Positions 20,970 through 64,000 are shown, numbered from the stretch's first letter. The stretch: DNA of 64,000 nt from Mycobacterium sp. Z3061 (GCF_031583025.1 NZ_CP134062.1:248001-312000), one strand, 5' to 3'. Notes: generated by a model from the sequence alone, not told the origin. Numbers and translations are program-made.

Positions 20970-22370
20970 CTAGCGGAATTCCCTCGGGTGCGCGGCGTCA
21001 GCCGGGAAGAGAAATCTGTCGGCGATTGCGTGCTCGTTGCGAATTGACATCTCTTGCGCCGTGTTGAGCCACAACCCGTCGAAGCCGGCAGAATGCATGC
21101 CGGCGTGAATCGCGGCGATGTTTCTCAAGTCTTGCGAAGGTAACTCGCCCCAACCATCGTGGTCCTGCCACCGCTCGAAGACCTGCCATTGAGTGTCGGG
21201 TACCTGGCCCGGTGCGAAGTGCTCGAGCGAAAACATCTCGAACAGGCTCCTGTTCGGGTCCTCGGCGTCGGGCAACATGCGATACCCCAGCAGGCAGGAC
21301 TTCTCGACCAGGATCACCATGCTCGGAAAAACGTGCCAATCACCGTTTCCCGCGAAATACTGCTCCATCGACATCTGCGGGAAGTCGACGCCCTCGGCGC
21401 GGGCAAGTTCTTCGCACATCTGGTGATAGAGCACAAAAGGTGGCACGTCGCCAGGCTCCAGGGTCGCTAGTTGCTGGGCGGCGCGAAAGTCGCGTTCGGT
21501 GACCAGAGATCCCACCTCGAGGTATTGGTACTGCATAGAATTCGCGAACACCTCAGGTCTGGCCGCCAGTTCCTGACGGCCGCTGTCGCGGTCGGAGTGC
21601 TCTGGTCGCTGGGTGTAGACGAAGCGGGAGTGGTTCTTGTAGGTGATGGTCGGCGTGTAAGGGGCGTAGGCGTATTCCTGTGGTGGGGCGGGCTCGGCCG
21701 ACGGCCGCGGACCCTGCGCTGACCGCATGGTCTGCGGGTGGGTGCCTGGGGTGTGGTAGCCCTCGATGAACGCGTCGATCACGGTCTTCCAATTGGCCGG
21801 TAGATACGTGCGCTTCCGCCAGCGATAACGCATGTCCTGCAGCCGGAATGGAGCCAGCGCAGTGGGCAGCGGATCCAGCCAGTCCAGCAGATCCGGTGGC
21901 TCTTGCGCCGTGGAGACGAACACCCATCCACCCCAGGTGCCGACCGCCACCGGACGCAGCCCCCACTGTTCACGCGGTCGCGAGGCGAATTCCTCACGGC
22001 ACGGAACGAACGAAGAACGGCCGTCCAACGCATATCGCCAACCGTGGAATTCACATCGGAACTCGTTGTCCTGCAGGCATCCGTTCTCTCGGGCGATCTT
22101 CATTCCGCGGTGTGAACAGGTGTTGTGGAACCCTTTGATTCCGCCGTCCTTCTGGCGTACCACGACGATGGATTGCCGTCCGATCGTGTATTCGTAAAAG
22201 CAGCCCGAATCGGGTATCTCCTCTTCGCGACAGGCAGGTTGCCAGACCTGAGCAAATAACCGGTCCAACTCGAGCTGCAAGAACGCAGGGTCGGTGTATC
22301 GGCTCTTCGGAACGAAGGTATCGCCGCAGGAATACTTCTCGGGCACGCGGCCGGTGAGGGTCTCGGTCAT
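20970..22370 (-). CDS. Rieske aromatic-ring/steroid hydroxylase, oxygenase subunit
   Basis: A 466-residue terminal oxygenase. The Rieske cluster ligands are Cys85-x-His87 and Cys106-x2-His109. The mononuclear iron site is in DAFIEGYHTPGTHP (His206, His211) with a C-terminal acidic ligand. ATG 22370 follows AAGGACC. It is the last gene of a crotonase, SDR, Rieske operon. No ferredoxin, ferredoxin reductase or small beta subunit is encoded in the window, so electron transfer must come from elsewhere. It probably hydroxylates a ring or alicycle in the island's pathway. Confidence 0.9.
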   Translation of the reverse strand: MTETLTGRVPEKYSCGDTFVPKSRYTDPAFLQLELDRLFAQVWQPACREEEIPDSGCFYEYTIGRQSIVVVRQKDGGIKGFHNTCSHRGMKIARENGCLQDNEFRCEFHGWRYALDGRSSFVPCREEFASRPREQWGLRPVAVGTWGGWVFVSTAQEPPDLLDWLDPLPTALAPFRLQDMRYRWRKRTYLPANWKTVIDAFIEGYHTPGTHPQTMRSAQGPRPSAEPAPPQEYAYAPYTPTITYKNHSRFVYTQRPEHSDRDSGRQELAARPEVFANSMQYQYLEVGSLVTERDFRAAQQLATLEPGDVPPFVLYHQMCEELARAEGVDFPQMSMEQYFAGNGDWHVFPSMVILVEKSCLLGYRMLPDAEDPNRSLFEMFSLEHFAPGQVPDTQWQVFERWQDHDGWGELPSQDLRNIAAIHAGMHSAGFDGLWLNTAQEMSIRNEHAIADRFLFPADAAHPREFR

Positions 22371-22380
22371 CACAGGTCCT

Positions 22381-23298
22381 TCAGTCGGCGGACGGCCTGT
22401 CGAAGATGTTCGGGTACAGCACCGCTTCCTTGAACGACGTTTCGATCTCCGAGAAGGCGGTCGGGATGTCCCAAGTTCCGGAGGCCGAGACAATCTCTCG
22501 CTCCACGACCGGATTCGACATCAGGCTTATGCGGCCGTTGCCGGCGAAGATGACCCGCCGGTTGAGCCAATCCGACTGCAGGCTAGCCAGATACACGACC
22601 GGAGGTACGCAGTTCTGTGGCGATAGTCGGACGTTGGAGTCGGAGTAGTCCATGCTCCCGCCGCCTTTGATGCCCTGGGTCATGCGGGTGCCGGCGATGG
22701 GTGCGATGGCATTGGCTCGTACCCCGTAATTGCGCAAGGCATTGGCGCACGAGAACGTCAGCCCGACGATCCCCATCTTGGCCGCCGCATAGTTGGGCTG
22801 GCTCGGCGCACCCTGGAGTCCGGACATCGAGGTGAAGGTGATCAGCCGGTACTGCCCGCCCCGGTTGGCCCGCCACCATGCTGCCGCATGACGCGTGATG
22901 TTGAACGTGCCTTTGAGATGCACAGAAATGACCGTGTCCCAATCCTGCTCGCTCATCTTGAACACCATGCCGTCACGCAGGATCCCGGCGGCGTTCACGA
23001 CGATATCCAGGCCGCCCAACGTTTCGGCTGCGCGACCCACGAGGTCGGCACATGCGCTGAAGTCGGTGATATCGGTCGTGTCGGCGAATGCCTTACCGCC
23101 CCGGCTGGTGATCGTGGCGGTAACGGCCTCGGCAGGACCAGCGTCGTGACCGGTGCCGTCGACGCTGACACCGGCGTCGGAGACGAATACCGTTGCGCCC
23201 TCGGCTGCGAGTCCCTCGGCGACCGCCGCTCCGATACCCCGCCCGGCACCCGTTACCAGTGCAGTCCGTCCCTCGAGTACACCCATGGGGCTCAGCAT
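22381..23298 (-). CDS. Short-chain dehydrogenase (hydroxyacyl-CoA type)
   Basis: A 305-residue SDR. GAGRGIG (17-23) binds NAD, NAAG follows, and the catalytic Ser is in TFTSMSG with Tyr-x3-Lys in YAAAK. It resembles the 3-hydroxyacyl-CoA dehydrogenase domain of peroxisomal MFE-2, with an extra C-terminal tail of about 40 residues. ATG 23298 lies 8 bases after TATGAC; a second ATG at 23286 would remove MLSP. Ten bases separate it from the Rieske gene. Likely role: oxidation of a hydroxyl made by the Rieske enzyme or a crotonase. Confidence 0.85.
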   Translation of the reverse strand: MLSPMGVLEGRTALVTGAGRGIGAAVAEGLAAEGATVFVSDAGVSVDGTGHDAGPAEAVTATITSRGGKAFADTTDITDFSACADLVGRAAETLGGLDIVVNAAGILRDGMVFKMSEQDWDTVISVHLKGTFNITRHAAAWWRANRGGQYRLITFTSMSGLQGAPSQPNYAAAKMGIVGLTFSCANALRNYGVRANAIAPIAGTRMTQGIKGGGSMDYSDSNVRLSPQNCVPPVVYLASLQSDWLNRRVIFAGNGRISLMSNPVVEREIVSASGTWDIPTAFSEIETSFKEAVLYPNIFDRPSAD

Positions 23299-23300
23299 AC

Positions 23301-23340
23301 AGAACAGTCATACAACATATGTATATGTGTCGACTGTGCT
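23301..23340. promoter_or_regulatory. Long imperfect palindrome at the SDR promoter
   Basis: AGAACAGTC (23301-23309) and GACTGTGCT (23332-23340) are complementary at 8 of 9 positions, spaced by 22 bases that contain ACAACATATGTATATGT. The left part AACAGTCATACA matches the AACAGTAATACA at 48752-48763 with one difference. It fills the short gap between the crotonase and SDR genes. Confidence 0.55.
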
Positions 23341-24244
23341 ATTCGAAGCCCCACTCTTGGTAGCGGCGTTCCAGCTCGGCCATCGCCGCACGTCCCCCGC
23401 GTTTGCTTCGTTCCTTCATGAAGTTGTACTCGTCCTCGCGCCAGGAGAGGTTGCTGAAGACGCTGTGCGCCATCGGAACCCAGTCGCCGAACTGGGCCAT
23501 GCCAACCGCGTGCCAGAACGTGATCAGCGCGTGTTTGCCCACCATCAAGCCGTCCGCGGAGTGGTGGGCGATGGCGCGCGCGTAGCGCATCGCCTCATCA
23601 CGGAGTGCGTCCGCGGCTACCACTGATGCAGCGACGCCCCAGTCGTGAAGCTCCGCCGCCGAGACTCTCCGGCCGGTGATCATCGCCTCGTACCCACGAT
23701 TAGGCCCGAGCTTGAGCAGGGCGAGCGGCATCGCGGTGGAGAAGCCGGCGAACCCGATGCGAGCCTGCGGTCGGGCCAGGTACATGTCTTCGGAAGCAAT
23801 CAGGATGTCAGCGGCAAGCGCAAGATTCATTCCGGCGCCAAGTGTCGCACCCTGGCACGCGACGATGACGGTCTTGGGGAACTCCAGCCAATTCGTCAGG
23901 TGCCGGTGCAGTCTCCGGGCATTGCCCATGCGCGCGGTCTGCGGCATTCGCTTGCCTGTGCGTAAACCCGCTTCCTCCACGGGGAGTCGCCGCACGTCGT
24001 CACCGCTGCTGAAATCCTTGCCCTCGGCAACCACAACCACGACTTTGACATCGTCGTCGTCTTCGGCGCGGGTCAGACGTTCCTTGAACATGTTGTGCAT
24101 GTCCGGCGACAGGATGGCGTTGCGGCGGTCCGGGCGGTTAATGGTGATCTGCGCGATGTGCGGTTCGACCACCTGGTAGCGGACCCAGTCTTCTGTCACT
24201 TCAGCGGGGTCGAAGTCGCCGCCGGCGGTCGCGTCGGTGTCCAT
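23339..24244 (-). CDS. Enoyl-CoA hydratase/isomerase family protein
   Basis: A 301-residue crotonase-fold protein. Oxyanion-hole loops are FSSGDDV and GATLGAGMNLAL. The usual second catalytic glutamate loop reads RPQARIGFAGF, without an obvious Glu, so the chemistry may differ from plain hydration. ATG 24244 follows AAGGAGG, which excludes the much longer open frame upstream. The N-terminal 30 residues are an acidic extension. It is the first gene of the crotonase, SDR, Rieske operon and divergent from the SRPBCC gene. Confidence 0.85.
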   Translation of the reverse strand: MDTDATAGGDFDPAEVTEDWVRYQVVEPHIAQITINRPDRRNAILSPDMHNMFKERLTRAEDDDDVKVVVVVAEGKDFSSGDDVRRLPVEEAGLRTGKRMPQTARMGNARRLHRHLTNWLEFPKTVIVACQGATLGAGMNLALAADILIASEDMYLARPQARIGFAGFSTAMPLALLKLGPNRGYEAMITGRRVSAAELHDWGVAASVVAADALRDEAMRYARAIAHHSADGLMVGKHALITFWHAVGMAQFGDWVPMAHSVFSNLSWREDEYNFMKERSKRGGRAAMAELERRYQEWGFE

Positions 24245-24320
24245 CCCGGCCTCCTTCACTGGGTGCGGTGGCCATGCGATACATAAGTACACTAGACGAT
24301 TAGTTGTTACACAGCAGTGG

Positions 24321-24332: not shown

Positions 24333-24761
24333 ATGCCGACCATCGCGATCCGAAAGCAACTGGGCGTGTCTGCGGGAGCAGTGTGGGCGACGCTCGCCGA
24401 CTTCGGCAATGTCGAGTGGATCCCGGGGGCAGGTGACGTCGTTGTCGAGGGTGACGGACCGGGCATGCAGCGGGTTCTCGCCGGCGGCGGGCCAACTCCC
24501 ATCGTGGAGAAGCTGCTGTGGATCGAACACGCGACGCGGAAGCTGTGCTACGAGATCACCGACAATCCATTGCCGGTCGGGCGTTTTGTGGCCGTCGCGA
24601 CGGTTTCGGACGGCGGGACCGATTCCGGGGGGTCCACCGTGGCCTGGGAAGTCGACTTCGAACCGGATGGCGATGAGGATGCCGCGCGGGGTGCCATCGA
24701 AGCGGTGTACGGCCTGATGGCGGGCTGGATCGAAGACTACGTGCGCGCCGCCGACCAATAG
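24333..24761 (+). CDS. SRPBCC (polyketide cyclase/PYR-like) protein
   Basis: A 142-residue helix-grip protein. MPTIAIRKQLGVSAGAVWAT, then the conserved Gly-Asn-x-x-x-W (FGNVEWIPG) and the long C-terminal helix (GAIEAVYGLMAGWIEDYVRA), is the PYR/polyketide-cyclase pattern. Such proteins bind hydrophobic ligands. ATG 24333 gives the family length and a leaderless promoter. It lies 41 bases before the amidohydrolase operon, which has its own promoter. Confidence 0.8.
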   Translation: MPTIAIRKQLGVSAGAVWATLADFGNVEWIPGAGDVVVEGDGPGMQRVLAGGGPTPIVEKLLWIEHATRKLCYEITDNPLPVGRFVAVATVSDGGTDSGGSTVAWEVDFEPDGDEDAARGAIEAVYGLMAGWIEDYVRAADQ

Positions 24762-24796
24762 AACACTTAGACACAATCTGTTTAGTAGTTTAAAAT
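24757..24796 (+). promoter_or_regulatory. Island motif AATAGAAC plus leaderless -10
   Basis: AATAGAAC at 24757-24764 is followed by ACACAATCTGTTTA (24771-24784) and the -10 box TAAAAT (24791-24796), exactly 6 bases before GTG 24803. It drives the long operon 24803-31803. Confidence 0.65.
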
Positions 24797-24802: not shown

Positions 24803-26113
24803 GTGATTGATCCTCTCGATCTGGTACTGATCAGTGTCGACGACCACACCATCGAGCCACCCGACATGTTCGCCGGACGCGTGCCGAGTCGCTTCGCCGA
24901 CCTCGCGCCGCGCATCGTCGAGGACACCGATGGCGTGTGCTACTGGGAATACGACGGTCTGCGGCTGCCCAACATCGGGCTGAACGCGGTTGCCGGCCGG
25001 CCTAACGACGAGTGGGGTTTCGAGCCGTCCCGCTTCGACGACATGAGAGCGGGGTGCTACGACATCGACGCCCGGGTGAACGACATGGACGCCTCCGGCG
25101 TCCTGGCGTCGGTATGTTTCCCGTCGTTTCCGACCATCTCGGGTGCGTTGTTCACCTACCAGGGCGACCGTGAGGTGTCGGAGGTGATGGTTCGCGCATA
25201 CAACGACTGGCACATTGAGGACTGGTGCGGCCGCCATCCGGACCGCTTCATCCCGATGGGCATCCTGCCGCTCTGGGACCCGACGCTGGCCGCCGCGGAG
25301 GTGCATCGTCTTGCGGGACTGGGTTGTCGGGCGGTGACCGCTCCGCAGCACATCGGTAGCTACGGACAGCCGCCGTGGCAGGACCCACACTGGGATCCGC
25401 TGTGGGAGGCGCTGTGCGAAGAGAACACCGTGGTGAATATTCACATCGGCACGGGCGGCGGCGTGCCCGTGCCGTCCGATCAGACCACCTACCTTGCTTA
25501 CAACTCGATGCTGCCAATCGATACGCAACGGTTCACGGCGGACCTGTTGTTCTCGCCGATCCTGATCAAATTTCCCACCATCAAGTTTTCACTCTCCGAA
25601 GGGGGCATCGGCTGGATTCCGTTCCTGCTCGAGAGGTTCGAGGACATCTACGCGCGTCAGCGGGCCTGGACGGGTGACGATCTCGGTGGCGGTCTGACCC
25701 CCACCCAGGTATATCGCCGCAACTTCATGTCCTGTTTCATCCGGGATCGGGTGGGCATCGAAATGCGGGACCGAATCGGTGTCGAGACCATTTGTTGGGA
25801 AATGGATTACCCGCACTCCGACAGCAGCTGGCCCGACGCGCCGGAGCAACTGGCTGCCCAGCTGGACGGCTGCACTGCGGCAGAGGTCGAGGCGATCACG
25901 TGGCAGAACGCTGCGCGGGCGTTCGGCTACACCGGTGTCGACCGGCTCGGCCGGTCGAACTGCACGGTTGGGGCACTGCGACAGAGAATCGTCGACCTGG
26001 ATCTGTCCGCACCCAAGGTAGATGCCGGCCGAGCACCCAAGGCCGGCGCCACCGCAATCACCTACGGCGAGATGAAACTGCGGATGGCATCGATCCTTCG
26101 TGGTGGGGCGTGA
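24803..26113 (+). CDS. Amidohydrolase-family TIM-barrel hydrolase (ring-cleavage candidate)
   Basis: A 436-residue amidohydrolase-2/ACMSD-like protein. LISVDDHTIEPP at the N-terminus carries the first metal residues; further ligand candidates are the His in NIHIGTGG and the Asp/His pair in EMDYPHSDSSWP. It is a clear paralogue of the protein at 43021. GTG 24803 is set by a -10 box 6 bases upstream. First gene of a six-gene operon with two acyl-CoA dehydrogenases, a fused CoA-transferase and an aldolase-like pair. It may hydrolyse a ring C-C bond or decarboxylate a CoA intermediate. Confidence 0.83.
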   Translation: MIDPLDLVLISVDDHTIEPPDMFAGRVPSRFADLAPRIVEDTDGVCYWEYDGLRLPNIGLNAVAGRPNDEWGFEPSRFDDMRAGCYDIDARVNDMDASGVLASVCFPSFPTISGALFTYQGDREVSEVMVRAYNDWHIEDWCGRHPDRFIPMGILPLWDPTLAAAEVHRLAGLGCRAVTAPQHIGSYGQPPWQDPHWDPLWEALCEENTVVNIHIGTGGGVPVPSDQTTYLAYNSMLPIDTQRFTADLLFSPILIKFPTIKFSLSEGGIGWIPFLLERFEDIYARQRAWTGDDLGGGLTPTQVYRRNFMSCFIRDRVGIEMRDRIGVETICWEMDYPHSDSSWPDAPEQLAAQLDGCTAAEVEAITWQNAARAFGYTGVDRLGRSNCTVGALRQRIVDLDLSAPKVDAGRAPKAGATAITYGEMKLRMASILRGGA

Positions 26114-27303
26114 CCGAGCCGGACTACGGGGTCGTCCTCAGCGATGCCGACCGCGCATTCCGCGACGAGGTGCGCGAGTTCCTTGCCGCGGCGCTGACCT
26201 CCGACCTGCGGGGGCGCGGCCATGACAAGACCGACCATCTGGTTCGAATGCGGCTGTGGCAGGAGCGACTTCATGAGGCCGGCCTGGCTGCCATCTCGTG
26301 GCCGAAACAGTTTGGCGGCCGCGGCGCCGGTCCGGTTCAGCAGCTGATTTTCAACGCCGAGATGGCTGCCGCACACGCCCCCGAACCCATCAACCGCAGC
26401 GCGATCAACCAGCTGGGGCCGACCATCATTCAGTGGGGCTCCGAGGAGCAGCGCGCCAATTACCTGCCGAGGATTCTGTCTGGCGCAGATGTCTGGTGCC
26501 AGGGTTTCAGTGAACCTGAGGCGGGTAGCGACCTGGCCGCATTGAGGACGAAGGCCGAGATCGACGGTGACGAGTTGGTGGTCACCGGGCAGAAGACCTG
26601 GACTTCCAAAGCTGAGTATGCGGACTGGATCTACATTTTGGCTCGTACCGACCCAGCGGCGGAGAAGCACGCGGGTATCAGTTGCGTTCTGGTGCCTTTG
26701 AGTTCGCCGGGAATCGAGATCCGTCCCATCCGGCAGATCACCGGGCAGGCGGAGTTCAACGAGGTGTTCTTCGATTCGGTACGGGTGCCGCGAGCGAACG
26801 TGGTCGGCCCGTTGCATGGCGGATGGCGGGTGGCCAAGTCGACTCTCGGCTACGAACGCGTCGGCCAGAGCCGCACTCACCGCATCGAGCGACGACTGGC
26901 AATTCTGGTCAAGATGGCCCAGGACGACAACGCGCTGACCCGGGATGGGTTGGACGACAGCTATGTCGCCGATCGCATCGCTGGTTTCGCCGCGCGGGTT
27001 GAGGCGCTGCGCCAGATCTCGGCGCAGGCCACCGCCGCCGGTGTCCGCGGTGTGAGTCCCGGACCCGAGGCCTCGGTGGCCAAACTGTTGACCTCCGAAG
27101 TCGACCAGGAGATGGCTAACTTCGGGCTGGACCTCGCGGGGCCATCTGGAATCCTGGATGGCAACTCGATCGGCACTGCGAAGAGTGGCAACGTCGCTCA
27201 GAGCTACCTGCTGATGCGGGCAGCGACGTTCGGCGCGGGCACCTCAGAAGTGCAACGCAACGTGATCGCGGAGAAACTACTGGGGTTGCCACGTGACCCT
27301 TGA
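26110..27303 (+). CDS. Acyl-CoA dehydrogenase, first subunit of a pair
   Basis: A 397-residue FAD enzyme with the usual signatures: CQGFSEPEAGSDLAAL (FAD/acyl contact), GQKTWTS, and near the C-terminus GAGTSEVQRNVIAEKLLGLP. GTG overlaps the amidohydrolase stop (GTGA), and the last 11 bases overlap the next acyl-CoA dehydrogenase. This adjacent full-length plus shorter arrangement is that of the heterotetrameric steroid enzymes (ChsE1-ChsE2 type), which act on bulky ring-containing acyl-CoAs. Confidence 0.92.
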   Translation: MTEPDYGVVLSDADRAFRDEVREFLAAALTSDLRGRGHDKTDHLVRMRLWQERLHEAGLAAISWPKQFGGRGAGPVQQLIFNAEMAAAHAPEPINRSAINQLGPTIIQWGSEEQRANYLPRILSGADVWCQGFSEPEAGSDLAALRTKAEIDGDELVVTGQKTWTSKAEYADWIYILARTDPAAEKHAGISCVLVPLSSPGIEIRPIRQITGQAEFNEVFFDSVRVPRANVVGPLHGGWRVAKSTLGYERVGQSRTHRIERRLAILVKMAQDDNALTRDGLDDSYVADRIAGFAARVEALRQISAQATAAGVRGVSPGPEASVAKLLTSEVDQEMANFGLDLAGPSGILDGNSIGTAKSGNVAQSYLLMRAATFGAGTSEVQRNVIAEKLLGLPRDP

Positions 27304-28372
27304 CTCAGCCCGTGGGTTGGACAACATCGCCGACACGGCCGAAGAACTTGCAGCTCTGCGGGATTCGGCTGATGAGGTGCTGCGCCGATCGTGGTCGCTC
27401 GTCGCTTTCCGGGACATGCTTGAAGGCTCGGTATTCGAGCCGGGGTTATGGCGGACGGTCGCCGAGCTGGGTTGGCCGGACGTGCTGGTGACCGAGAACC
27501 GCGGAGGGGGAGGCGGAGTCCTGCGCGAGTTGTGTGTGCTGGCCGAGGCGGCCGGCGCCGCGGCAGCCCCAATTCCGCTGGCGGGGGTGGCTGCCGCTGC
27601 CTGGTGCGCGGACCGCTGCGTCGACGGCGTTGTTCTACTACTGCCAACACTTGGCGAGCGCACCGGCGTCGGTGTCTCGGGAGTGTGGCCGGTGGTGCCC
27701 TACGCGGTGGTGGCCGGCGCCTTGCTGGTGTGCGCGGGTGCGGGTGACCAGGCCGTGCTGGGGTTGGTCGACATCAATGGGGTGGGGGTCAAGATCGAGC
27801 CGCTGACACCGCTGGATCACAACCCCGCCGCGCGAATCTCATTGCAGGAAGCACCAATCGACGTCCTAGCCGAAGGCCGGCACGCCGAGTCACGCCACCG
27901 TGGGGCAGTGCTGCGTGCACAGATCGCCCAAGTGTCCGAACTGGTCGGCATTGCGGCGGCCGCCAACGACGCTGCAACCGAATACGCGAAGATACGTCGA
28001 GCCTTCGGCCGGCCGATCGGCGCGTACCAGGCGATCAAGCATCGTTTGGTTGACCAGAGGTGTGCGATCGAGATCGGTCGGGCGCTGGTCAGTAGGGCCG
28101 CTGATGCGTGCCAGGACGACCATCCCGATGCCGCCGCGCTGACGTCGCTAGCAGCGTTCTGGGGGATCGATGCGCTGCGTCCAGTGGCCGAAGGCGCCAC
28201 GCAAGTCTTCGGCGGCATCGCCTTCACGTGGGAGCACGACGCGCATGTGCACCTTCGCCGGGCAGCCACCTCCGCTGCCTTGCTCGGTTCCCGCGCCTAT
28301 CACCGCCAAGCGGTGACGCGCTGGCTAGGGGCGGGTAACCGTCTCACCCGTGAGGGGACTGCCGGCGCATGA
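27293..28372 (+). CDS. Acyl-CoA dehydrogenase-like, second subunit of a pair
   Basis: A 359-residue degenerate acyl-CoA dehydrogenase. The N-terminal and beta domains are weakly conserved, but the C-terminal part keeps RRAFGRPIGAYQAIKHRLVD and GATQVFGGIAFTWEHDAH. It lacks the EPEAGSD and GTSEIQR motifs of its partner, as do FadE28-type subunits. GTG 27293 overlaps the first subunit by 11 bases. It very probably forms an alpha2-beta2 enzyme with the product of 26110. Confidence 0.88.
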   Translation: MTLDSARGLDNIADTAEELAALRDSADEVLRRSWSLVAFRDMLEGSVFEPGLWRTVAELGWPDVLVTENRGGGGGVLRELCVLAEAAGAAAAPIPLAGVAAAAWCADRCVDGVVLLLPTLGERTGVGVSGVWPVVPYAVVAGALLVCAGAGDQAVLGLVDINGVGVKIEPLTPLDHNPAARISLQEAPIDVLAEGRHAESRHRGAVLRAQIAQVSELVGIAAAANDAATEYAKIRRAFGRPIGAYQAIKHRLVDQRCAIEIGRALVSRAADACQDDHPDAAALTSLAAFWGIDALRPVAEGATQVFGGIAFTWEHDAHVHLRRAATSAALLGSRAYHRQAVTRWLGAGNRLTREGTAGA

Positions 28373-36256: not shown

Positions 36257-36264
36257 AGAGGTAA

Positions 36265-52377: not shown

Positions 52378-52385
52378 CGATGTAG

Positions 52386-52405: not shown

Positions 52406-52478
52406 CAAGTGTCATACGATGGTTGTAGTCGGAGGGCTCGTACCGGCTATCCCTCCGAAGGCGTTACGGTGGTCGGCG

Positions 52479-56205: not shown

Positions 56206-56241
56206 TGCTACTCCTTCGCGGTGCGCGCCTTGCCAAAGTCT

Positions 56242-56271
56242 ACAATAGAACGGAATGTGTCCAATCGTTCT
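56242..56271. promoter_or_regulatory. Island motif at the E1 promoter
   Basis: AATAGAAC (56244-56251) overlaps the minus-strand -10 TATTGT (56247-56242). AGAACG (56247-56252) and CGTTCT (56266-56271) are perfect inverted repeats separated by 13 bases. The 115-base gap 56206-56320 holds no gene. Confidence 0.65.
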
Positions 56272-57099: not shown

Positions 57100-58265
57100 A
57101 ACGTGGCCTCCGTTCCCAGGATCACGGTCGAGGTCGCCGACAACACCCCGCCGGTACCGTGTGCTACCGCGGTCGCGGCGCCGTCGACCTGGCGGTCACC
57201 GCATTCGCCCCGCAACTGGCGGGCGGCCTCGACAAGCAGGAAGGCGCCGAACGCACCGGGGTGTGTGTAGGCCAGGCCACCTCCGCTCGTCTGTCCGGGC
57301 AGCGCTCCGCCGGGTCCGAGCACTCCTTCGGCGACAAAAGGGCCGCCTTCACCCTTGGGGCAGAACCCGAGGTCTTCGAGCGCGAGCAGCACGGTGATGG
57401 TGAACGAGTCGTAGAGCTGCACGACGTCGATGTCGCGGGGAGACAGCTGAGCGGTTTTGAATGCCGCGGGCCCGGAGACAGATCCGGGTGTGACTGTCAG
57501 ATCAGGCATCTGGGAGATCATCGCGTGCGAGGCCGCCGACGCGGCGCCCAGGACCATCACAGGCTGGGTGGCCAACGCGCGTGCCCGTCCGGTGCTGGTG
57601 ATCACGATCGCCGCGGCTCCGTCGGTGACCAGGCAACACTCCAATTTGTGCAGCGGCTCGGCAATGAAGCCCGAGCTCAACACGTCATCCACCGTGATCG
57701 CTTCGCGCAGATGCGCACGCGGATTCAAGGCGGCCCATCGTCTGGTGTCTACCGCGATTTGAGCCAATTGCGCTGCGGTGGTTCCGTACTCGGCCATATG
57801 TCGGCTGGCGGCCAGCGCGTACGCGCTGATCGGCAACATCACCCCGTACGGAGTCTCCCATTCCAGTCGCTCGGGAGTGGCGAAGACGCCCAGTCCTTTC
57901 TCGCCACGCCGGCGGGCCGCTCGTGGCGTCGAGGCGTACACGATCACGACCGTTTCGGCCGCACCGGCGGCGATGGCAGCAGCGGCATGCTCGACATACA
58001 GCCCGTAGCTCGCCCCGCCGGTCTGAGTAGAGTCGGTGAACCGCGGTGCGATTCCCAGATACTCGGCAAGTTCCACGGCGTGCATCAGGGTTCCGCCGGT
58101 ACAACAGCATAACCCGTCCACATCACGCAGCGACATACCCGCGTCAGCCAGGGCCGCACTGACGACACGCGCCTCCAGCTCCCGCAGCGGAACGTCGATC
58201 ACGCCGGTGGGCGAAACCTCCTCGGCAACACCGACGATGGCGGCCGCTCCTCGAATCGTCGTCAC
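57096..58265 (-). CDS. Thiolase-fold protein lacking the nucleophilic Cys (Ltp2-like)
   Basis: A 389-residue thiolase homologue. At the position of the nucleophilic Cys the sequence is STQTGGASYGLYV, with no Cys. YDSFT in the middle and the C-terminal GGGLAYTHPGAFG loop are those of the lipid-transfer/Ltp2 branch, where tyrosines do retro-aldol chemistry. It is coupled by 4-base overlaps to a ligase before it and a DUF35 protein after it. Best guess: side-chain aldolase of a CoA-activated, branched or ring-bearing acid. Confidence 0.87.
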   Translation of the reverse strand: MTTIRGAAAIVGVAEEVSPTGVIDVPLRELEARVVSAALADAGMSLRDVDGLCCCTGGTLMHAVELAEYLGIAPRFTDSTQTGGASYGLYVEHAAAAIAAGAAETVVIVYASTPRAARRRGEKGLGVFATPERLEWETPYGVMLPISAYALAASRHMAEYGTTAAQLAQIAVDTRRWAALNPRAHLREAITVDDVLSSGFIAEPLHKLECCLVTDGAAAIVITSTGRARALATQPVMVLGAASAASHAMISQMPDLTVTPGSVSGPAAFKTAQLSPRDIDVVQLYDSFTITVLLALEDLGFCPKGEGGPFVAEGVLGPGGALPGQTSGGGLAYTHPGAFGAFLLVEAARQLRGECGDRQVDGAATAVAHGTGGVLSATSTVILGTEATL

Positions 58266-59755
58266 CGGTACACCCCTTCGAACAGGGCACGCAGGCCTGG
58301 TTGACTGACCTTCAGTGATGGCGTGCGGGGCAGCTCGTCAACCACGACGAGCTGCGCCGGAACCTGATATCGACTTACCCGCGCTCGAACGTAGTCCACA
58401 AGCACCTGCGGCTCGACCTGCGCACCTTCAGCCAACTCGACTGCCGCGACAGGCACTTGGCCGAGGCGCTTGTCAGGTACACCGGTCACGCCGGCGTCGC
58501 GCACCGCGGGGTGGGTGCGCAACACGTTGACGATGTCGGTGGGTGTGATCTTGAAGCCACCGCGGATGATCACGTCGTCGGTGCGTCCGTCGATGTAAAC
58601 GAAGCCGTCTGAGTCAATTCGACCGAGGTCGGTCGTCGACACCCAATCCCCGCCCCGAGTCCGTACCTCAATGCGACCGGGCGTTCCGGCCGGTACCTCT
58701 CGACCGTCGTCCGCGGATACGACCCGGATCTCCCGACCTTCGTGCGGCCGACCTACGCTGCCACGTTTTGTTGCTGCCCATTTGCGGTGCAGGGCGAGGT
58801 TCCAGCCGGCCACTCCACCCGCGAATTCGGTTGCCCCGTAGGACGGCAGCACCGCGACTCCGTATCGTCGCTCGAATTGAGCCTGAACGTCGACCGGCAG
58901 GTGTGCGGTTCCCGAGGTAACAACGTCGACGCTGGCGAAGGCCTCTGGTGCTACGGCGGCGTCCAGCACCATCGCCATCGCCGATGGCACCAAACTCACC
59001 GCGCGCGGTCGATGCCGCGAGAGGAGATCTACGAAGTCCGTCACGCTGAATCGCTCCAGTAGCGCGATCTTCCTGCCTTCGCAGATGTTCAGCAGAGTGC
59101 GGAACAAACCGGACATGTGCACCAAGGGAGACGAGACAATGGCCACCCCCGATCGCAACCTGGGAGCCGGAGCGTCAGATGAACCGTAGTGCACGCCAGC
59201 TGCCGCGACCGTATGCTCAAAGTCGCGGTAGGACAGTGGTATACGCTTCGGTGGACCCGTCGTACCACTGGTCAGCATCTCAACCGCGATCCCGGCCGCG
59301 CCGGCCTTGAACGGGCCTGTACCGAGACTTTCGAGTTCCGGTACGGGCTGGCAGGCGGCCGGTTCGGCCACGACTTGCAATCCGATGGCGTCGCTAGCGG
59401 CGTCGACGACGCCGGTACGTCGCCAGTCGGTTGGCACGGCCACCAACACCGGCAGTCTCAGACTGCGGATTTCTTCGGCGAGCGCGTTGTCACCGTGTGC
59501 AGGGTTGATCGTGACGATGCAACCACCGGCCAGCAGCACTCCCAGCATGGCACCGATCATCGCCGGGTCGTTGCGCAGTATCAGCCCCACGGCGGTGCCG
59601 TCACCCAAATTCGCTGTCATCACCCGGTTTTCCACCGATTTGGCGATGGCGGCCAGTGTCCGCCAGTCGGTCCACGTCCCTCGATATTCGATCGCCGGTG
59701 CTGAGGGATCGAGGGTCAGAACCGTGCGGATGCGGTCAACCAGTCCCCCGGTCAA
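58262..59755 (-). CDS. AMP-dependent acyl-CoA ligase
   Basis: A 497-residue ANL-superfamily enzyme. LTSGTTGPPK (161-170) is the phosphate-binding loop, SYGATEFAGG the core motif, DGFVYIDGRTDD the hinge and PSLKVSQPGL carries the catalytic Lys482. No ATG or GTG fits; TTG 59755 overlaps the luciferase-like stop as TTGA and begins exactly at the conserved helix, so it is taken as the start. It is the only ATP-dependent CoA ligase in the window and is a likely entry enzyme. Confidence 0.9.
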   Translation of the reverse strand: MTGGLVDRIRTVLTLDPSAPAIEYRGTWTDWRTLAAIAKSVENRVMTANLGDGTAVGLILRNDPAMIGAMLGVLLAGGCIVTINPAHGDNALAEEIRSLRLPVLVAVPTDWRRTGVVDAASDAIGLQVVAEPAACQPVPELESLGTGPFKAGAAGIAVEMLTSGTTGPPKRIPLSYRDFEHTVAAAGVHYGSSDAPAPRLRSGVAIVSSPLVHMSGLFRTLLNICEGRKIALLERFSVTDFVDLLSRHRPRAVSLVPSAMAMVLDAAVAPEAFASVDVVTSGTAHLPVDVQAQFERRYGVAVLPSYGATEFAGGVAGWNLALHRKWAATKRGSVGRPHEGREIRVVSADDGREVPAGTPGRIEVRTRGGDWVSTTDLGRIDSDGFVYIDGRTDDVIIRGGFKITPTDIVNVLRTHPAVRDAGVTGVPDKRLGQVPVAAVELAEGAQVEPQVLVDYVRARVSRYQVPAQLVVVDELPRTPSLKVSQPGLRALFEGVYR

Positions 59756-60825
59756 ACTGCGGCGGCCGCGAGCTCGGTGGCGGCCGGGATCACCTCTTGA
59801 GCGAACAACTTCATCGACTCGTACACCTTGGTGCGGTCCATCGCACCGCCGCGTGACATGCGCAACATGATGTTGCGCCAACCCATATCCACGACGGTCC
59901 GCATCTTGTCGATGATGCGGTCCGGGTCGCCCATCAACGTCAGGTGAGAGTTGAGTACCTGTTCGTAACTCTGCTTGTCGTGCTTTTCGAACCAGTCCGA
60001 GTAGGCCTTGTAGTCGGCAGGTATCTGCCCGTCTCGCTCGAACGGGTTCGAGTATTGGCGATGGGTCTGGATCGACAGTTCGACGCTGTCGCGGGGATAG
60101 GTGCGGGCAAAAGCGTCGTCTTGGTGGCAGAACGCGTTGAGAAGCGCCCAGACATTTCCGGTTGCTGCTGCGAGGCCTTTCTCGGACTGGACCTTGAGGT
60201 AGATGTCCAACGCTCCCTGCAGGTCCGGGTCCACCTGATAAGGGTTCCCGATAATCGCACCAAATCCCTTGTCGGCCAGCCACTCAAAGCTGGACGGTGT
60301 CTTCATCACCGTGCCCCACACGGGAATCGGTCGCTGCAGTGGCCGCGGATAGATCGTCACGTCCTCGAGCTGGAAGTATCTGCCTTGGTAACTGACGTTT
60401 TCCTCGCTGAGCAGCCGGTGCACGATCTCCACGCACTCCTGGTACCGGCCGGTGGCCTCGTCCATCGAGATACCGAAACCTTTGAATTCGTGCGCCTGAT
60501 ATCCACGGCCGAACCCGGCGTCGAAACGTCCCCCCGACAACACGTCGACAAGTGCAATGCGTTCGGCCAGCTGAATCGGGTCGTGAAACGGCGCGACCAT
60601 GCATGCCGTTCCAATACGAATTCGCTCGGTCTGGGCCGCGATAGCCGCCGCTACCTGGGGTAGGTCAGCGAGCATGCCGTACGGAGAAAAGTGGTGCTCT
60701 GCCAACCAGACTTCGTCGAAGCCGAGTTCCTCCGCCCAGCGCGCCTCCTGCAGCACGTTGGCCAGCACCTCCTGATCGCTGAGGTGATTGGGCTTGTCGC
60801 CGAGGATGAACACACCGAATCTCAT
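59752..60825 (-). CDS. LLM-class flavin or F420-dependent monooxygenase
   Basis: A 357-residue luciferase-like protein. MRFGVFILGDKPNHLSDQEV, WLAEHHFSPYGMLADLP and GRFDAGFGRGYQAHEFKGFG place it with the alpha-type luciferase/alkanal-monooxygenase branch more than with typical F420 reductases. ATG 60825 follows GGGGGCAG. It heads the five-gene operon down to 56321 and is divergent from the MaoC-TetR-SDR operon across a 95-base gap with two palindromes. Confidence 0.88.
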   Translation of the reverse strand: MRFGVFILGDKPNHLSDQEVLANVLQEARWAEELGFDEVWLAEHHFSPYGMLADLPQVAAAIAAQTERIRIGTACMVAPFHDPIQLAERIALVDVLSGGRFDAGFGRGYQAHEFKGFGISMDEATGRYQECVEIVHRLLSEENVSYQGRYFQLEDVTIYPRPLQRPIPVWGTVMKTPSSFEWLADKGFGAIIGNPYQVDPDLQGALDIYLKVQSEKGLAAATGNVWALLNAFCHQDDAFARTYPRDSVELSIQTHRQYSNPFERDGQIPADYKAYSDWFEKHDKQSYEQVLNSHLTLMGDPDRIIDKMRTVVDMGWRNIMLRMSRGGAMDRTKVYESMKLFAQEVIPAATELAAAAV

Positions 60826-60852: not shown

Positions 60853-60873
60853 GCAGTTACTGCCAATATATTG
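60853..60873. promoter_or_regulatory. Adjacent palindromes in divergent promoter
   Basis: GCAGT-T-ACTGC (60853-60863) and CAATATATTG (60864-60873) are perfect palindromes lying side by side midway between two divergent operons. TATATT in the second could be a -10 box in either direction. The TetR encoded at 61751 is the obvious candidate binder. Confidence 0.55.
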
Positions 60874-60920
60874 CACGATTGAACACGAAGCGTCAAACCG
60901 TTCATCGCAGGAGGTCGTGC

Positions 60921-61748
60921 GTGAGTCTGTCCGACGCGGTCGTCGGTACCCCGATGACTCCGGCGACCTTTCGGTGGGATGAAACGGACGTCATCCTCTA
61001 CGCGCTGGGTGTCGGTGCCCGGCCCCCCACCGAGCTCCCGTTGCTCAATGAAGCGTGCGGGCCGCAGGTGCTGCCGACCTTCGCGCTCGTCGCGAACTGG
61101 TGGGCGGTCAAGGACCTGCGCAGCGCGCTCGACCTGGGTACGTTTCCGATTGTGCATGCCGCGCAGTCCCTTGACCTGCACCGGCCGATCGCGACCCGCG
61201 GCGAGCTTTCCGTGCGCGCCGAGGTCTCGGCGGTCTGGGACAAGGGCAAGCATGCCGCAGTGGAACTCACCAGTCGGGGCACCGACGACGACGGGCCGGT
61301 CTTCGTCGCTCGGTCACAGACCATGGTGCTCGGCGCCGGAGGTTTCGGCGGGGGCCGCGCTCCGGTGGCAGACCCCGATCCCGAGGGTGAACCGGACGCG
61401 CAGCGTGACGACGTCGTCCGGCCGGAGCAGGCCGCGATCTACCGGTTGTCCGGTGACCGCAACCAACTGCACATCGATCCGGCGGCTGCCCGCAAGTACG
61501 GCTTCGACGACGTCTTCCTCCACGGACTGTGCACGCTCGGATTCGCAGCACGAGCTTTGATCAATGAGTTCGGGCACGGAAACCCAGCCGCGTTGACGTC
61601 ATTGAGCTGTCGGTTCGCCAAGCCGGTGCGCCTCGACGCCGCGGTGCGCACCGAGATGTGGCGATCGGGAGAATCAGTGCGATTCCGGATGCTGCAAGGC
61701 GATGTGCTGGCGTTGAGTTCGGGTTCCGCATCGGTGTCGGGAGGCTGA
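60921..61748 (+). CDS. MaoC-like enoyl-CoA hydratase 2 (double hot-dog)
   Basis: A 275-residue protein with an N-terminal degenerate and a C-terminal catalytic hot-dog domain. The hydratase-2 motif YRLSGDRNQLHIDPAAA keeps the catalytic Asp and His (Gln replaces the usual Pro after Asn). This is the MFE-2/ChsH-like layout for R-specific hydration of bulky enoyl-CoAs. GTG 60921 follows GGAGG. First of three overlapping or touching genes (MaoC, TetR, SDR). Confidence 0.9.
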   Translation: MSLSDAVVGTPMTPATFRWDETDVILYALGVGARPPTELPLLNEACGPQVLPTFALVANWWAVKDLRSALDLGTFPIVHAAQSLDLHRPIATRGELSVRAEVSAVWDKGKHAAVELTSRGTDDDGPVFVARSQTMVLGAGGFGGGRAPVADPDPEGEPDAQRDDVVRPEQAAIYRLSGDRNQLHIDPAAARKYGFDDVFLHGLCTLGFAARALINEFGHGNPAALTSLSCRFAKPVRLDAAVRTEMWRSGESVRFRMLQGDVLALSSGSASVSGG

Positions 61749-61750: not shown

Positions 61751-62377
61751 ATGGATCAAAGACGGGCCCGGGGACAGCGCAACAGGCAAGCTCTCATCCA
61801 CGCGGCGATCGACCTGTTCAGCGATCGTGGTTACGAAGCGACGACTATCGAACAGATCTCGGCCGCGGCCGGAGTGGCGCCGCGGACGTTCTTTCACCAC
61901 TTCGCCACCAAGGACGACATCCTGTTCGACGGATACGCCGACCGGCTCGCAGAGGCCACCAGGCGGTTCCGGGCGGCCCACCCCGATTCACTGGCCGAAG
62001 CTCTCGCCGAGGCGTCATCGGCGGTGGCGCAGGCGATCACCGAACAGCCGGAACTGTTCGTGGCGCGCGCGCGGCTGTACCAGAGGGTGCCGGCGCTACG
62101 GGCGACGATGCTCCGGATCAATGAGGACTGGATCGACCAACTCACCGCGGAGGTCGCACGCTGGTTGGGGTGCGAGGGCGGGAATGACCTCCGGCCGCGC
62201 CTTGCCGCGACATTGCTCAACGGGGCCAACCGCGCCGCCATCGATGTGTGGGTCGGCGGCGGCGGTCACGGCGACCTGCCCGGCCTGATTGCCGAATCGG
62301 TTCAGTTGGTGCGGCCGGCGATCTGCGCAATCGAGCAGGCCGGCACCGCCGCCGCGGAGAGTCAACGTGCCGGCTGA
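61751..62377 (+). CDS. TetR family transcriptional regulator
   Basis: A 208-residue TetR protein with helix-turn-helix TIEQISAAAGVAPRTFFHHFATKDDILFDG (about residues 34-64) and the FFxHFxTK form of the MftR-type subgroup. It begins 2 bases after the MaoC stop and overlaps the SDR start by 11 bases, so it is an operon member, not a separate unit. It probably regulates the divergent promoter at 60826-60920. Confidence 0.87.
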   Translation: MDQRRARGQRNRQALIHAAIDLFSDRGYEATTIEQISAAAGVAPRTFFHHFATKDDILFDGYADRLAEATRRFRAAHPDSLAEALAEASSAVAQAITEQPELFVARARLYQRVPALRATMLRINEDWIDQLTAEVARWLGCEGGNDLRPRLAATLLNGANRAAIDVWVGGGGHGDLPGLIAESVQLVRPAICAIEQAGTAAAESQRAG

Positions 62378-63116
62378 ATCACGTCCACTGGCGATCGTCA
62401 CCGGAGGGGCGCGGGGGATCGGTGAGGCCATCGTCGACACGTTGGTGGCCGCCGGACACCGGGTGGCCGCTGTCGACATCAATGCAAAAGCCCTCGAGCG
62501 GATTCGCGCTTCGGAGTACGCGCGATCGGGACAACTCATCCCCGTGCAGCTGTCGATCACCGAGCGTGCAGCGGTGGAGACGGCGGTGCGCGACCTGACC
62601 GACCGTCACGGGCCCATCTGTGCGCTGGTCAACAATGCCGGGATGACCTTGCCCGCAACATTTTTGGATCAGACCGACGATGACTGGGATCAGATCGTGG
62701 AGGTCAATCTCAAGGGCACGTTCGTGGTGTCGCAAGTCGTGGCCCGTTCGATGGTGACCGCAGGTGGCGGTTCGATCGTCAACGTGAGTTCGGTATCGGC
62801 GCACGGGGTGCGTACCGGACCGCCCGCATACGCCGCCGCCAAGTCGGGAGTCGAGGGGCTGAGCAGGCTGATGGCCGTGCAACTGGGCGAGCACGGTGTC
62901 CGGGTCAACACGGTGGTGGTCGGTACGACCGCGACTCCGTGGCTGCTGTCGCGCAAGAGTGAGGCGGAACTTGACCGGATGCGCGCGACGACCCTGACCG
63001 GCCGGCTCGGCGAACCCTCAGACGTTGCGGCCACGGTCGCGTTCCTGTGCTCACCGCAGGCCAAACACGTCACCGGTCAGCTTATTTCGGTCTCGGGTGG
63101 CCAGTGGATACCGTGA
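62367..63116 (+). CDS. Short-chain dehydrogenase (FabG-like)
   Basis: A 249-residue classical SDR: VTGGARGIGEAI, NNAG, catalytic Ser in VNVSSVSAHG, YAAAKSG, and GQLISVSGGQWIP at the end. GTG 62367 overlaps the TetR gene by 11 bases. With the MaoC hydratase two genes upstream it forms a hydration-oxidation pair for beta-oxidation. Confidence 0.9.
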   Translation: MPAESRPLAIVTGGARGIGEAIVDTLVAAGHRVAAVDINAKALERIRASEYARSGQLIPVQLSITERAAVETAVRDLTDRHGPICALVNNAGMTLPATFLDQTDDDWDQIVEVNLKGTFVVSQVVARSMVTAGGGSIVNVSSVSAHGVRTGPPAYAAAKSGVEGLSRLMAVQLGEHGVRVNTVVVGTTATPWLLSRKSEAELDRMRATTLTGRLGEPSDVAATVAFLCSPQAKHVTGQLISVSGGQWIP

Positions 63117-63188
63117 AGCGATCGATAGGACAATGAGACAGAGATTGATATGCTGTTTAGCTGTCGCAGTTCAGTGCCGGGAGATGTC

Positions 63189-63956
63189 GTGGAGTTGAAG
63201 AGAATACTGTTCGAGGTCAGTGAGCAGATCGCGACTATCACGATCAACCGTCCGGACCGGCTCAACGCCACCGACGATCTCACCCGTACCGAGCTGGGTA
63301 TGGCTTGGGCGCAGGTTCGCGACGATCCGAACATCCGGGTAGCCATCATCACCGGTGCCGGTGACCGCGCATTCTCGGCCGGCCAAGACATCCAAGCCAC
63401 CGCCGCGAACGGCATCCGGAACAAAGTGCCGGGCTCCCGTTTGCACCACAATGTGTGGAAGCCGGTCATATGTGCCTTGAATGGCATGGTGGTCGGTGGC
63501 GGCCTGCATCAGGTGGCGGACGCGGACCTGATCATCGCGGCCGAACATGCCGAGCTGATCGACACCCACCTGCGGGTCGGCAACGTCTTCGCCCTCGAGC
63601 CGGCGGTACTGCTGCGCAGGATGCCGCTGTCGATGGTGATGCAGCTCGCGCTGATGACCAAACAGGGTCGCATCAGCGCGCAGCGGGCCTTCGAGATCGG
63701 TTTGATCAACGAGGTCGTACCGGCAGATCAGCTGCAACGGCGCGCACGAGAGATCGCGCTGGAGATCACCAAGCTCTCACCGGCCACCGTCCAGGCTTCC
63801 ATCAAGGCGATGTGGACCAGTCTCGACGTCGGCCTGCACGCGGCCAATGACGTCGCGTACCGGTACGTGCTGCAACACCAGTTGACCCACCCCGACTACC
63901 GGGAGGGAATGGTCGCGTTCGCCGAGAAGCGCGAACCTCGCTGGGTGGTGGAGTAG
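63189..63956 (+). CDS. Enoyl-CoA hydratase/isomerase family protein
   Basis: A 255-residue crotonase. FSAGQDIQAT and LNGMVVGGGLHQVADADLI form the oxyanion hole; the following loop THLRVGNVFALEPAVLL is unlike the standard double-Glu site. GTG 63189 has GGGAG 5 bases upstream and TATGCT (63149-63154) about 35 bases before it; ATG 63150 would add 13 residues but has no ribosome site. It is followed 7 bases later by another gene that runs off the window. Confidence 0.85.
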   Translation: MELKRILFEVSEQIATITINRPDRLNATDDLTRTELGMAWAQVRDDPNIRVAIITGAGDRAFSAGQDIQATAANGIRNKVPGSRLHHNVWKPVICALNGMVVGGGLHQVADADLIIAAEHAELIDTHLRVGNVFALEPAVLLRRMPLSMVMQLALMTKQGRISAQRAFEIGLINEVVPADQLQRRAREIALEITKLSPATVQASIKAMWTSLDVGLHAANDVAYRYVLQHQLTHPDYREGMVAFAEKREPRWVVE

Positions 63957-63963
63957 CGCCGAA

Positions 63964-64000
63964 ATGACGGAATCTGCCCGGGTTTTCAGCTACGATGCGT
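63964..64000 (+). CDS. Start of a further gene, cut by the window end
   Basis: ATG 63964, 7 bases after the crotonase stop, opens a frame of 12 codons reading MTESARVFSYDA to the window end. It is probably the next member of the same operon. Too short to identify. Confidence 0.4.
   Translation, partial: MTESARVFSYDA

Follow-up and report, generated by a model that had tools for sequence, protein, structure and literature searches.

A 64,000-nucleotide stretch of the Mycobacterium sp. Z3061 genome (hereafter the window; bases 248001-312000 of a 6.79-Mb single-contig genome) contains the greater part of a conserved gene block that runs from position 20970 to approximately 74955, i.e. ~54 kb with 54 called genes, extending 11 kb beyond the window end. 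We consider this block, with a probability of roughly 0.6, to be a self-contained catabolic regulon of ~54 genes dedicated to a bulky alicyclic substrate, with isoprenoids (for instance acids or alcohols of the di- or triterpenoid series) as the likeliest class. The block genes form one conserved unit, and most block promoters carry one common operator-like palindrome. An earlier note on this DNA had proposed a catabolic island at 20970..64000; the palindrome-marked regulon is new and absent from that note.

Genes were called with a codon-usage script across the window plus 20 kb upstream and 40 kb downstream, and the block was compared with the same region from ten other genomes of the genus, drawn from the 34 others known to hold the cluster. 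The best tblastn match within a fetched region was taken as a counterpart when it showed at least 48% identity over at least half the protein length, and misses at the ends of fetched stretches were scored as misses. By this measure 42 of the 54 block genes have counterparts in all ten regions and 49 in at least nine, the five less conserved genes being 31814, 32559, 52479, 67372 and 71002 (genes are denoted by their lower coordinate; Table 1). For 14 of the 16 flanking genes tested no counterpart is present in the ten regions, the other two having one or two, and the left edge at 20970 therefore stands; the proposed right end at 64000 does not, since both counterparts and operator-like sites persist past it to ~74955. 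The description as an island is borne out by composition (third-position GC 0.77 for the 54 block genes versus 0.83 for 61 flank genes; Mann-Whitney p 2e-13) and by patchy occurrence.

This patchiness was assessed in a sample of 297 genomes of the genus, one of which belongs to the same species as the source. Some relative of the fused E1 (54184) is found in 165 of these, at the limit of the search; full-length relatives of at least 74% identity occur in 35 genomes (36 places), with a gap down to 52% below them. The P450 39339 (E up to 1e-130) and the Rieske oxygenase (E up to 1e-150), which together with the E1 gene lie 15-33 kb from one another, are found in exactly the same 35 genomes, and in random draws of 35-genome sets a single such coincidence has a probability below 10^-45, although species are not independent. 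Close E1 holders include M. gordonae (strain CTRI 14-8773, 99% identity), asiaticum, scrofulaceum, intermedium, colombiense, shimoidei, aurum, vanbaalenii and iranicum, followed by Williamsia (72%) and the actinomycete metagenome-assembled genome (MAG) K_Offshore_80m (67%). The synteny, the shared distribution of three far-apart genes and the cluster-wide operator-like site described below give good support to the proposal that the block serves one pathway. A second E1 type, of 51-52% identity and with an internal stop within the match, was observed at 13 places in 13 genomes of the genus (e.g. G045:C1:3117057-3119006), and is probably encoded by separate alpha and beta genes.

Partial versions of the cluster also occur. 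One genome (G039) carries, beside a full cluster elsewhere, a smaller second locus (L168/L169, G039:C1:508001-540000) with a relative of TetR 70320 (71%), E1, lipoyl domain, crotonases 53094 and 48809, P450 47531, SRPBCC protein and Rieske oxygenase, together with seven site matches. In a 3.2-Mb genome (G089, L170:6604-10528), a relative of TetR 70320 and a site scoring 38.1 lie near three truncated stretches that look like leftovers of cluster genes, so that the cluster here seems to have decayed.

The palindrome emerged from a matrix search of the intergenic regions of eleven clusters, which returned AACAATWGAACA; the extended site is a ~31-bp palindrome, gaACAattgaACAnantnTGTtcaatTGTtc, with four boxes at 8-bp spacing (ACA-N5-ACA-N5-TGT-N5-TGT). 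For the scores given in Table 1, the matrix was trained on the other ten genomes with the source genome left out. This matrix yields 18 matches at 23302-72528, in 16 separate places and one of them intragenic, with no match in the preceding 43 kb or the following 31 kb (124 kb in total), none in five 20-kb controls of the source genome and two in 300 kb of control sequence from the others. As the mononucleotide-shuffle control of the matrix search is weak, 20 control stretches and cross-validation were used: with the matrix trained on half of the clusters and applied to the remaining half, sites scoring above 10 were present in 70 of 107 and 67 of 109 cluster intergenic regions, whereas control intergenic regions had them in 3 of 161 and 2 of 161 cases and the shuffled test regions in 4 and 3. 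Divergent promoters carry a site in 91 of 96 cases across the eleven clusters versus 3 of 51 in controls, the matrix here having been trained on these same clusters. The four-box pattern gives a similar picture, with 12 window matches at up to two mismatches versus 0.78 expected. At no more than one mismatch, whole genomes contain 9-16 copies in the nine examined that hold the cluster versus 1-4 in the ten that do not, the reversed pattern giving 0-3 in both groups of these 19 genomes; in the source genome 10 of 12 such sites are inside the block. Sites also accompany the more distant loci, with 11 matches at ten places in Williamsia (L052; shuffled mean 0.07) and four, all preceding cluster genes, in an actinomycete MAG (L053; shuffled mean 0.045). 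An exact-dyad palindrome search returned nothing over background, and the half-site GAACAATWGAACA was dropped as a whole-genome pattern, its two-mismatch search being too loose and the four-box pattern better.

TetR genes 61751 and 70320 are present in all ten other clusters. The 35 cluster genomes all hold a relative of 70320 (E up to 1e-70), as do two others, G089 (above) and G236; in the latter the relative lies near relatives of P450s 35051 (75%) and 47531 (73%), with sites scoring 25.1 and 23.5. The MAG L053 contains a 70320 relative at 47% identity, with a recognition-helix stretch nearly the same by eye, plus a weaker one at 36%. Shuffled versions of the G236, G089 and G039 loci give at most two site matches. 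Because site-bearing loci keep 70320 even with most of the cluster missing, it is the best regulator candidate, and this co-occurrence suggests that the palindrome is read by this putative regulator. TetR 61751 was disfavoured in this role: BLAST returns zero matches to it in the L053 stretch covered, and none was seen in the stretches covered of the second G039 locus, G089 and G236, where 70320 does have a match. The inducer might, as a guess, be a CoA thioester. Given the delimited genes, the operator-like site and the single candidate regulator, inducer screening rather than guesswork can now lead the search for the substrate.

The enzyme set, judged from family assignments, suggests coenzyme A (CoA)-ester breakdown of a bulky hydrophobic ring compound. 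Pfam scans, covering 50 proteins of which two are off-block or a spurious open reading frame (ORF), agree with the enzyme counts first put forward for the window: one Rieske oxygenase, four P450s (47531 being identified by PDB matches and its haem motif rather than by Pfam), one acyl-CoA ligase, four family III CoA-transferase genes, five acyl-CoA dehydrogenases, seven crotonases, one MaoC, two Amidohydro_2 proteins, one SGL propeller and a fused E1 with a lipoyl domain. That there appeared to be one ligase and five dehydrogenases reflects the window edge cutting the block. Two Cys-less thiolases with OB partners had also been described; both thiolases (30685 and 57096) indeed have no Cys at the usual active-site positions by eye, whilst an OB/DUF35 partner with Pfam support is found for 57096 only (56707). 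The small protein preceding 30685 (30386) matches no Pfam family and resembles 56707 only weakly in a profile comparison (probability 4%); it is conserved in all ten other clusters at 49-67%.

In the pathway that we propose, oxygenation of the skeleton would fall to the P450s (one CYP125-like) and the Rieske enzyme, oxidation of alcohols would fall to short-chain dehydrogenases (SDRs), among them the mycofactocin-coupled one, and two ligases and the CoA-transferases would make and move CoA esters. Beta-oxidation would be carried out by the paired acyl-CoA dehydrogenases, crotonases and MaoC, and the Cys-less thiolase/OB pairs would split hydroxyacyl-CoAs by retro-aldol reaction. Heteromeric acyl-CoA dehydrogenases are expected as unequal pairs, and two such pairs are present, each comprising a full-length protein and a partner without a middle-domain match. 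Rings may be opened by the luciferase-like flavoenzyme (Baeyer-Villiger) and the propeller (lactone hydrolysis), the fused E1 would load the free lipoyl domain with an acyl group (by decarboxylation or alpha-ketol cleavage), and bulky CoA esters would be hydrolysed by the DitZ-like amidohydrolases.

A terpenoid is the best guess for the substrate, since both amidohydrolases best match DitZ (PDB 8uyr; E 1.4e-101 for 24803 and 7.9e-80 for 43021) and then PtmU3 (4.3e-30 and 1e-36, respectively). We take PtmU3 to be the diterpenoid-CoA thioesterase of platensimycin biosynthesis, and the Dit of DitZ presumably refers to diterpenoids; a literature search found no paper on DitZ. The initial suggestion of a polycyclic or terpenoid compound is made plausible by these amidohydrolases and the mycofactocin-type SDR. 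The CYP125-like P450 35051 and the Ltp2-like thiolase 57096 serve as further hints to the substrate.

Several points weigh against the catabolic terpenoid reading or the regulon on which it builds. The counterpart calls are best tblastn matches inside the fetched regions only. Intergenic regions are more AT-rich in the clusters (GC 0.57) than in the controls (0.62), and the full matrix also matches 15 of 39 other loci (L061-L099), many of the matches being weak and the loci with the highest numbers looking AT-rich. The half-site at two mismatches is unspecific (46 genome matches, 6 in the block; 8 reversed). Elsewhere the source genome has a comparable four-box site, upstream of an unrelated tetR that neighbours a GlpD-like gene (L166:6111-6137; G000:C1:4130111-4130137); at least 11 of the 19 genomes searched contain such a site, whether or not they hold the cluster. 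The two site matches of G089 do not exceed the largest of 200 shuffles, despite the best score of 38.1, and gene calling on the 22 kb from Williamsia yielded no TetR. The genome has 20 Amidohydro_2 matches, so that likeness to DitZ may reflect the sole close solved relative rather than the substrate, and 2 of 20 proteins pass a curated NCBIfam cut-off among the matches listed. A crude motif search found no P450 or Rieske electron-transfer partner in the block, only three chance-looking ferredoxin-like small ORFs; the E2 catalytic domain (PF00198) occurs at four places in the genome and nowhere in the block; and no importer was noticed there. The pathway would thus lean on genes elsewhere.

Several of these features bear on a steroid or sterol variant of the pathway, acting on a sterol, bile acid or plant steroid outside the reach of the KstR/KstR2 pathway, which we regard as unlikely. 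The acyl-CoA dehydrogenases of cholesterol regulons come in pairs, and these regulons also hold Ltp/OB aldolases and a P450 of the CYP125 family. The block matches them in its CYP125-like P450, in its acyl-CoA dehydrogenase pairs, with a weak similarity of 27293 to the IpdE2 NCBIfam model that falls far under the cut-off, and in its Ltp2-type thiolase (57096) with a ChsH2-type OB partner (56707); best PDB matches of the thiolase are 4u4e and then the lipid-transfer proteins 9myr and 6ok1, which we take to be of the Ltp2 type. To this set the block adds amidohydrolases, family III CoA-transferases, E1 and the lipoyl protein. No KstD, KshAB or HsaA-D was recognised in the Pfam scans of the 50 proteins, which are blind to the difference between KshA and other Rieske proteins and did not include dedicated models on all genes, and neither a large extradiol dioxygenase nor a KstD-type family is among the scanned proteins. 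The KstR and KstR2 regulons are likewise large TetR regulons, but the ~31-bp four-box palindrome is neither the published KstR core TnnAACnnGTTnnA nor the KstR2 site AnCAAGnnCTTGnT (PMC1995591, PMC3068626). A whole-genome search with the KstR pattern TAGAACNNGTTCTA at up to one mismatch, which did not extend to a KstR2 pattern, placed none of 12 sites in the block and six at 6.16-6.29 Mb (reversed control, 9). Identity of the palindrome with a KstR site was rejected on the strength of the different consensus and this result, and the conclusion that the block is not the cholesterol cluster is well supported.

That the block degrades a simpler substrate, an alicyclic or aromatic acid or a pollutant such as a naphthenic acid or alkylated ring compound, also appears improbable. 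CoA-transferases, acyl-CoA dehydrogenases and crotonases are common in such pathways, and Rhodococcus plasmids carry similarly composed clusters, one from crude-oil-contaminated soil; the numbers of P450s (four), thiolase-fold proteins (three) and dehydrogenases (six) are nevertheless high for a small molecule, and conservation of the set among mycobacteria, and to some extent in Williamsia and a MAG as well, suggests a natural substrate. Anabolism or turnover of an endogenous isoprenoid lipid, rather than growth on an external compound, would account for the lack of a noticed importer, but is very unlikely given the degradative set with two ligases and many beta-oxidation genes, and its presence in only 35 of the 297 sampled genomes. 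Unrelated lipid operons grouped by chance are conceivable in a genome where genes of this sort abound (the acyl-CoA dehydrogenase N-domain has 75 matches, so that their presence alone means little), yet in view of the common operator-like site, the identical genome distribution and the conserved synteny this explanation is scarcely credible.

Among described systems, dit clusters encode CoA-dependent degradation of a polycyclic diterpenoid and share with the block P450 and Rieske genes, DitZ being the closest solved relative of both amidohydrolases. The dit papers, which cover clusters of Pseudomonas and Paraburkholderia (PMC10710418, PMC13063091), name DitQ together with two dioxygenases, DitA and the ring-cleaving DitC, whereas the only block protein of such a fold is a 142-residue VOC protein, a comparison made by description; the string 'mycobacter' is absent from their main texts. 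PtmU3, a sequence relative of both block amidohydrolases, presumably belongs to a biosynthetic cluster, unlike the block. Plasmid clusters of unassigned function, for example from Rhodococcus opacus (pRop44186_a, L165), Paraburkholderia sprentiae (L124) and Azospirillum B510 (L120), share by annotation an amidohydrolase, a CoA-transferase pair, a mycofactocin SDR and a P450, together with thiolase/OB (L165) or Rieske-E1-lipoyl genes (L120, L124); gene order differs, identity is lower, and the gene tables name no pathway. The R. opacus cluster is also annotated with a ferredoxin, two thiolase/OB pairs and an LLM enzyme. An open-licence literature search of titles and abstract starts found no description of this cluster and no characterised pathway with its gene set. 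One published table (PMC6891630) includes the Mycobacterium strains DhA-55 and IpA-13 as degraders of resin acids, and the literature search found no gene set for mycobacterial resin-acid degradation.

The strangest part of the block is the Rieske/E1/lipoyl set without a dedicated E2. As in acetoin and branched-chain 2-oxo acid dehydrogenase complexes, there is an E1 with a thiamine diphosphate motif and a lipoyl domain; unlike those complexes, alpha and beta are fused, the lipoyl domain is free-standing, the cluster has no E2, and a Rieske gene belongs to the same putative regulon. The adjacency of crotonase 53094 and the lipoyl gene is kept in Williamsia and the second G039 locus. That G039 locus, an actinomycete MAG, Azospirillum, Paraburkholderia and Haliea/Halioglobus relatives each have Rieske, E1 and lipoyl genes no more than a few kb apart. 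In L053 the run comprises an amidohydrolase, two CoA-transferases, a double CoA-transferase, SnoaL, E1 and lipoyl, then an opposite-strand SDR followed by Rieske, TetR and SDR. Related E1 genes adjoin Rieske and lipoyl genes in Azospirillum B510, are close to them in P. sprentiae, and lie near a Rieske gene in Rhodococcus ZPP. Across 40 E1 loci from outside the mycobacterial group, 12 have a Rieske relative within the sequence retrieved, and for seven of the 12 (from Haliea, Halioglobus and others) the gene order is E1, lipoyl, E2, thiolase, Rieske; 15 of the remaining 28 hold an E2 relative and resemble ordinary dehydrogenase operons.

Acetoin dehydrogenase, which splits acetoin, offers a model for alpha-ketol ring cleavage by an E1. 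By analogy, the set could be a ring-opening device in which a cyclic alpha-hydroxyketone, prepared by the Rieske enzyme or a P450, is cleaved by the E1 at that C-C bond, with the acyl group passing to lipoyl and then CoA; we consider this distinctly unlikely, and ordinary 2-oxo acid decarboxylation is more likely. Were the set to act as suspected, it would constitute new ring-opening chemistry, and alpha-ketol cleavage would be an unrecognised general route to opening alicyclic rings.

Table 1. Genes and operator-like sites of the block (window positions; percentages are identities to counterparts in the other clusters unless stated)
Feature	Position	Strand	Basis or remark
Rieske-type ring-hydroxylating oxygenase, large subunit	20970..22370	-	Pfam Rieske + Ring_hydroxyl_A; Rieske Cys/His motif
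Short-chain dehydrogenase	22381..23298	-	Pfam adh_short; 82-93% in 10/10
Crotonase	23339..24244	-	Pfam ECH_1
SRPBCC/polyketide cyclase-like	24333..24761	+	Pfam
Amidohydrolase-fold enzyme, DitZ-like, suspected CoA thioesterase	24803..26113	+	Pfam Amidohydro_2; PDB matches
Acyl-CoA dehydrogenase, large partner	26110..27303	+	three Pfam ACAD domains
Acyl-CoA dehydrogenase, partner without middle-domain match	27293..28372	+	Pfam
Family III CoA-transferase, double-length	28369..30465	+	Pfam CoA_transf_3, 3 stretches
Small conserved protein, suspected OB partner of 30685	30386..30688	+	true start probably further downstream
Thiolase-fold protein without usual Cys, suspected retro-aldolase	30685..31803	+	Pfam Thiolase_C_1; Cys by eye
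TetR regulator, accessory	31814..32365	-	Pfam TetR_N; 1/10
Cytochrome P450, accessory	32559..33773	+	Pfam p450; at least 48% in 4/10, varying position
Family III CoA-transferase	33816..35024	-	Pfam
Cytochrome P450, CYP125-like	35051..36256	-	Pfam; best PDB CYP125MRCA, E 1e-72
Family III CoA-transferase, first of pair	36362..37597	+	Pfam
Family III CoA-transferase, second of pair	37684..38817	+	Pfam
Small VOC/glyoxalase-fold protein, 142 aa	38858..39286	+	Pfam Glyoxalase, scanned from 38714
Cytochrome P450, in every compared cluster	39339..40532	+	Pfam; 84-90% in 10/10
Acyl-CoA dehydrogenase, partner without middle-domain match	40535..41587	+	Pfam
Acyl-CoA dehydrogenase, large partner	41590..42729	+	Pfam
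Small conserved ORF	42726..42938	-	gene call; 64-76 aa ORFs alike in 7/7 clusters listed
Amidohydrolase-fold enzyme, DitZ-like	43021..44319	+	Pfam; PDB matches
SMP-30/gluconolactonase-like propeller	44321..45259	-	Pfam SGL
SnoaL-like protein	45256..45786	-	Pfam
Mycofactocin-coupled type short-chain dehydrogenase	45879..46736	+	TIGR03971 329 bits, cut-off 300
Crotonase	46737..47534	-	Pfam
Cytochrome P450, CYP130-like	47531..48730	-	best PDB CYP130, E 6.4e-67; haem Cys motif
Crotonase	48809..49621	+	Pfam
Acyl-CoA dehydrogenase	49625..50821	+	Pfam
Crotonase	50804..51583	-	Pfam
Crotonase	51580..52377	-	Pfam; 77% in actinomycete MAG L053
TetR regulator, accessory	52479..53087	+	Pfam; 2/10
Crotonase adjoining lipoyl domain	53094..53957	-	Pfam
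Free-standing lipoyl domain, 77 aa, DKVE lysine motif	53954..54187	-	Pfam Biotin_lipoyl; sequence
Fused alpha+beta E1, thiamine diphosphate dehydrogenase/decarboxylase	54184..56205	-	Pfam E1_dh, Transket_pyr, Transketolase_C
SnoaL-like protein	56321..56671	-	Pfam SnoaL_2
Zn-ribbon/OB protein (ChsH2 C-terminal/DUF35 type)	56707..57099	-	Pfam OB_ChsH2_C + zf-ChsH2
Thiolase-fold protein without usual Cys, suspected retro-aldolase	57096..58265	-	Pfam Thiolase_C_1; PDB matches
Acyl-CoA ligase	58262..59755	-	Pfam AMP-binding, scanned as 58262-60283
Luciferase-like flavin monooxygenase	59752..60825	-	Pfam Bac_luciferase
MaoC-type hydratase, two hot-dog halves	60921..61748	+	Pfam MaoC_dehydratas + MFE-2_hydrat-2_N
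TetR regulator, kept in mycobacterial clusters	61751..62377	+	PDB matches to TetR family; 10/10
Short-chain dehydrogenase (by eye)	62367..63116	+	gene call; 10/10
Crotonase	63189..63956	+	Pfam; synteny; block goes on past window
Second acyl-CoA ligase	64027-65589		beyond window
Sixth acyl-CoA dehydrogenase	66241-67368		beyond window
TetR regulator, candidate	70320-70931 (L002:6320-6931)	-	beyond window
Third thiolase/OB pair	73547/73780		beyond window
Operator-like site	23302..23332		score 23.4; four-box match, zero mismatches
Operator-like site	24279..24309		score 22.3
Operator-like site	24761..24791		score 29.4
Operator-like site	36263..36293		score 19.9
Operator-like site	36327..36357		score 30.5
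Operator-like site	39285..39315		score 18.3
Operator-like site	42955..42985		score 26.8
Operator-like site	45822..45852		score 24.1
Operator-like site	48751..48781		score 29.6
Operator-like site	52384..52414		score 26.0
Operator-like site	56240..56270		score 30.6
Operator-like site	60873..60903		score 23.5
Operator-like site	63128..63158		score 23.8

Beyond the genes tabulated, the part of the block past the window end also encodes an SDR, a SnoaL protein, a DUF427/thioesterase fusion and an aldehyde dehydrogenase. Rfam gave zero matches at positions 20000-64000. In the seven clusters listed, the small conserved protein 42726, beside amidohydrolase 43021, carries an HDDWADQDLL-like motif, and at the position of tetR 52479 five of the seven have, by eye, a nitronate-monooxygenase-like gene. 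Just past the block (L002:12488-20000 and L003:1-1466; positions 76488-85466 counted on from the window), there are genes resembling, by eye, those for a formate dehydrogenase and the selenocysteine machinery (SelD, SelA and SelB).

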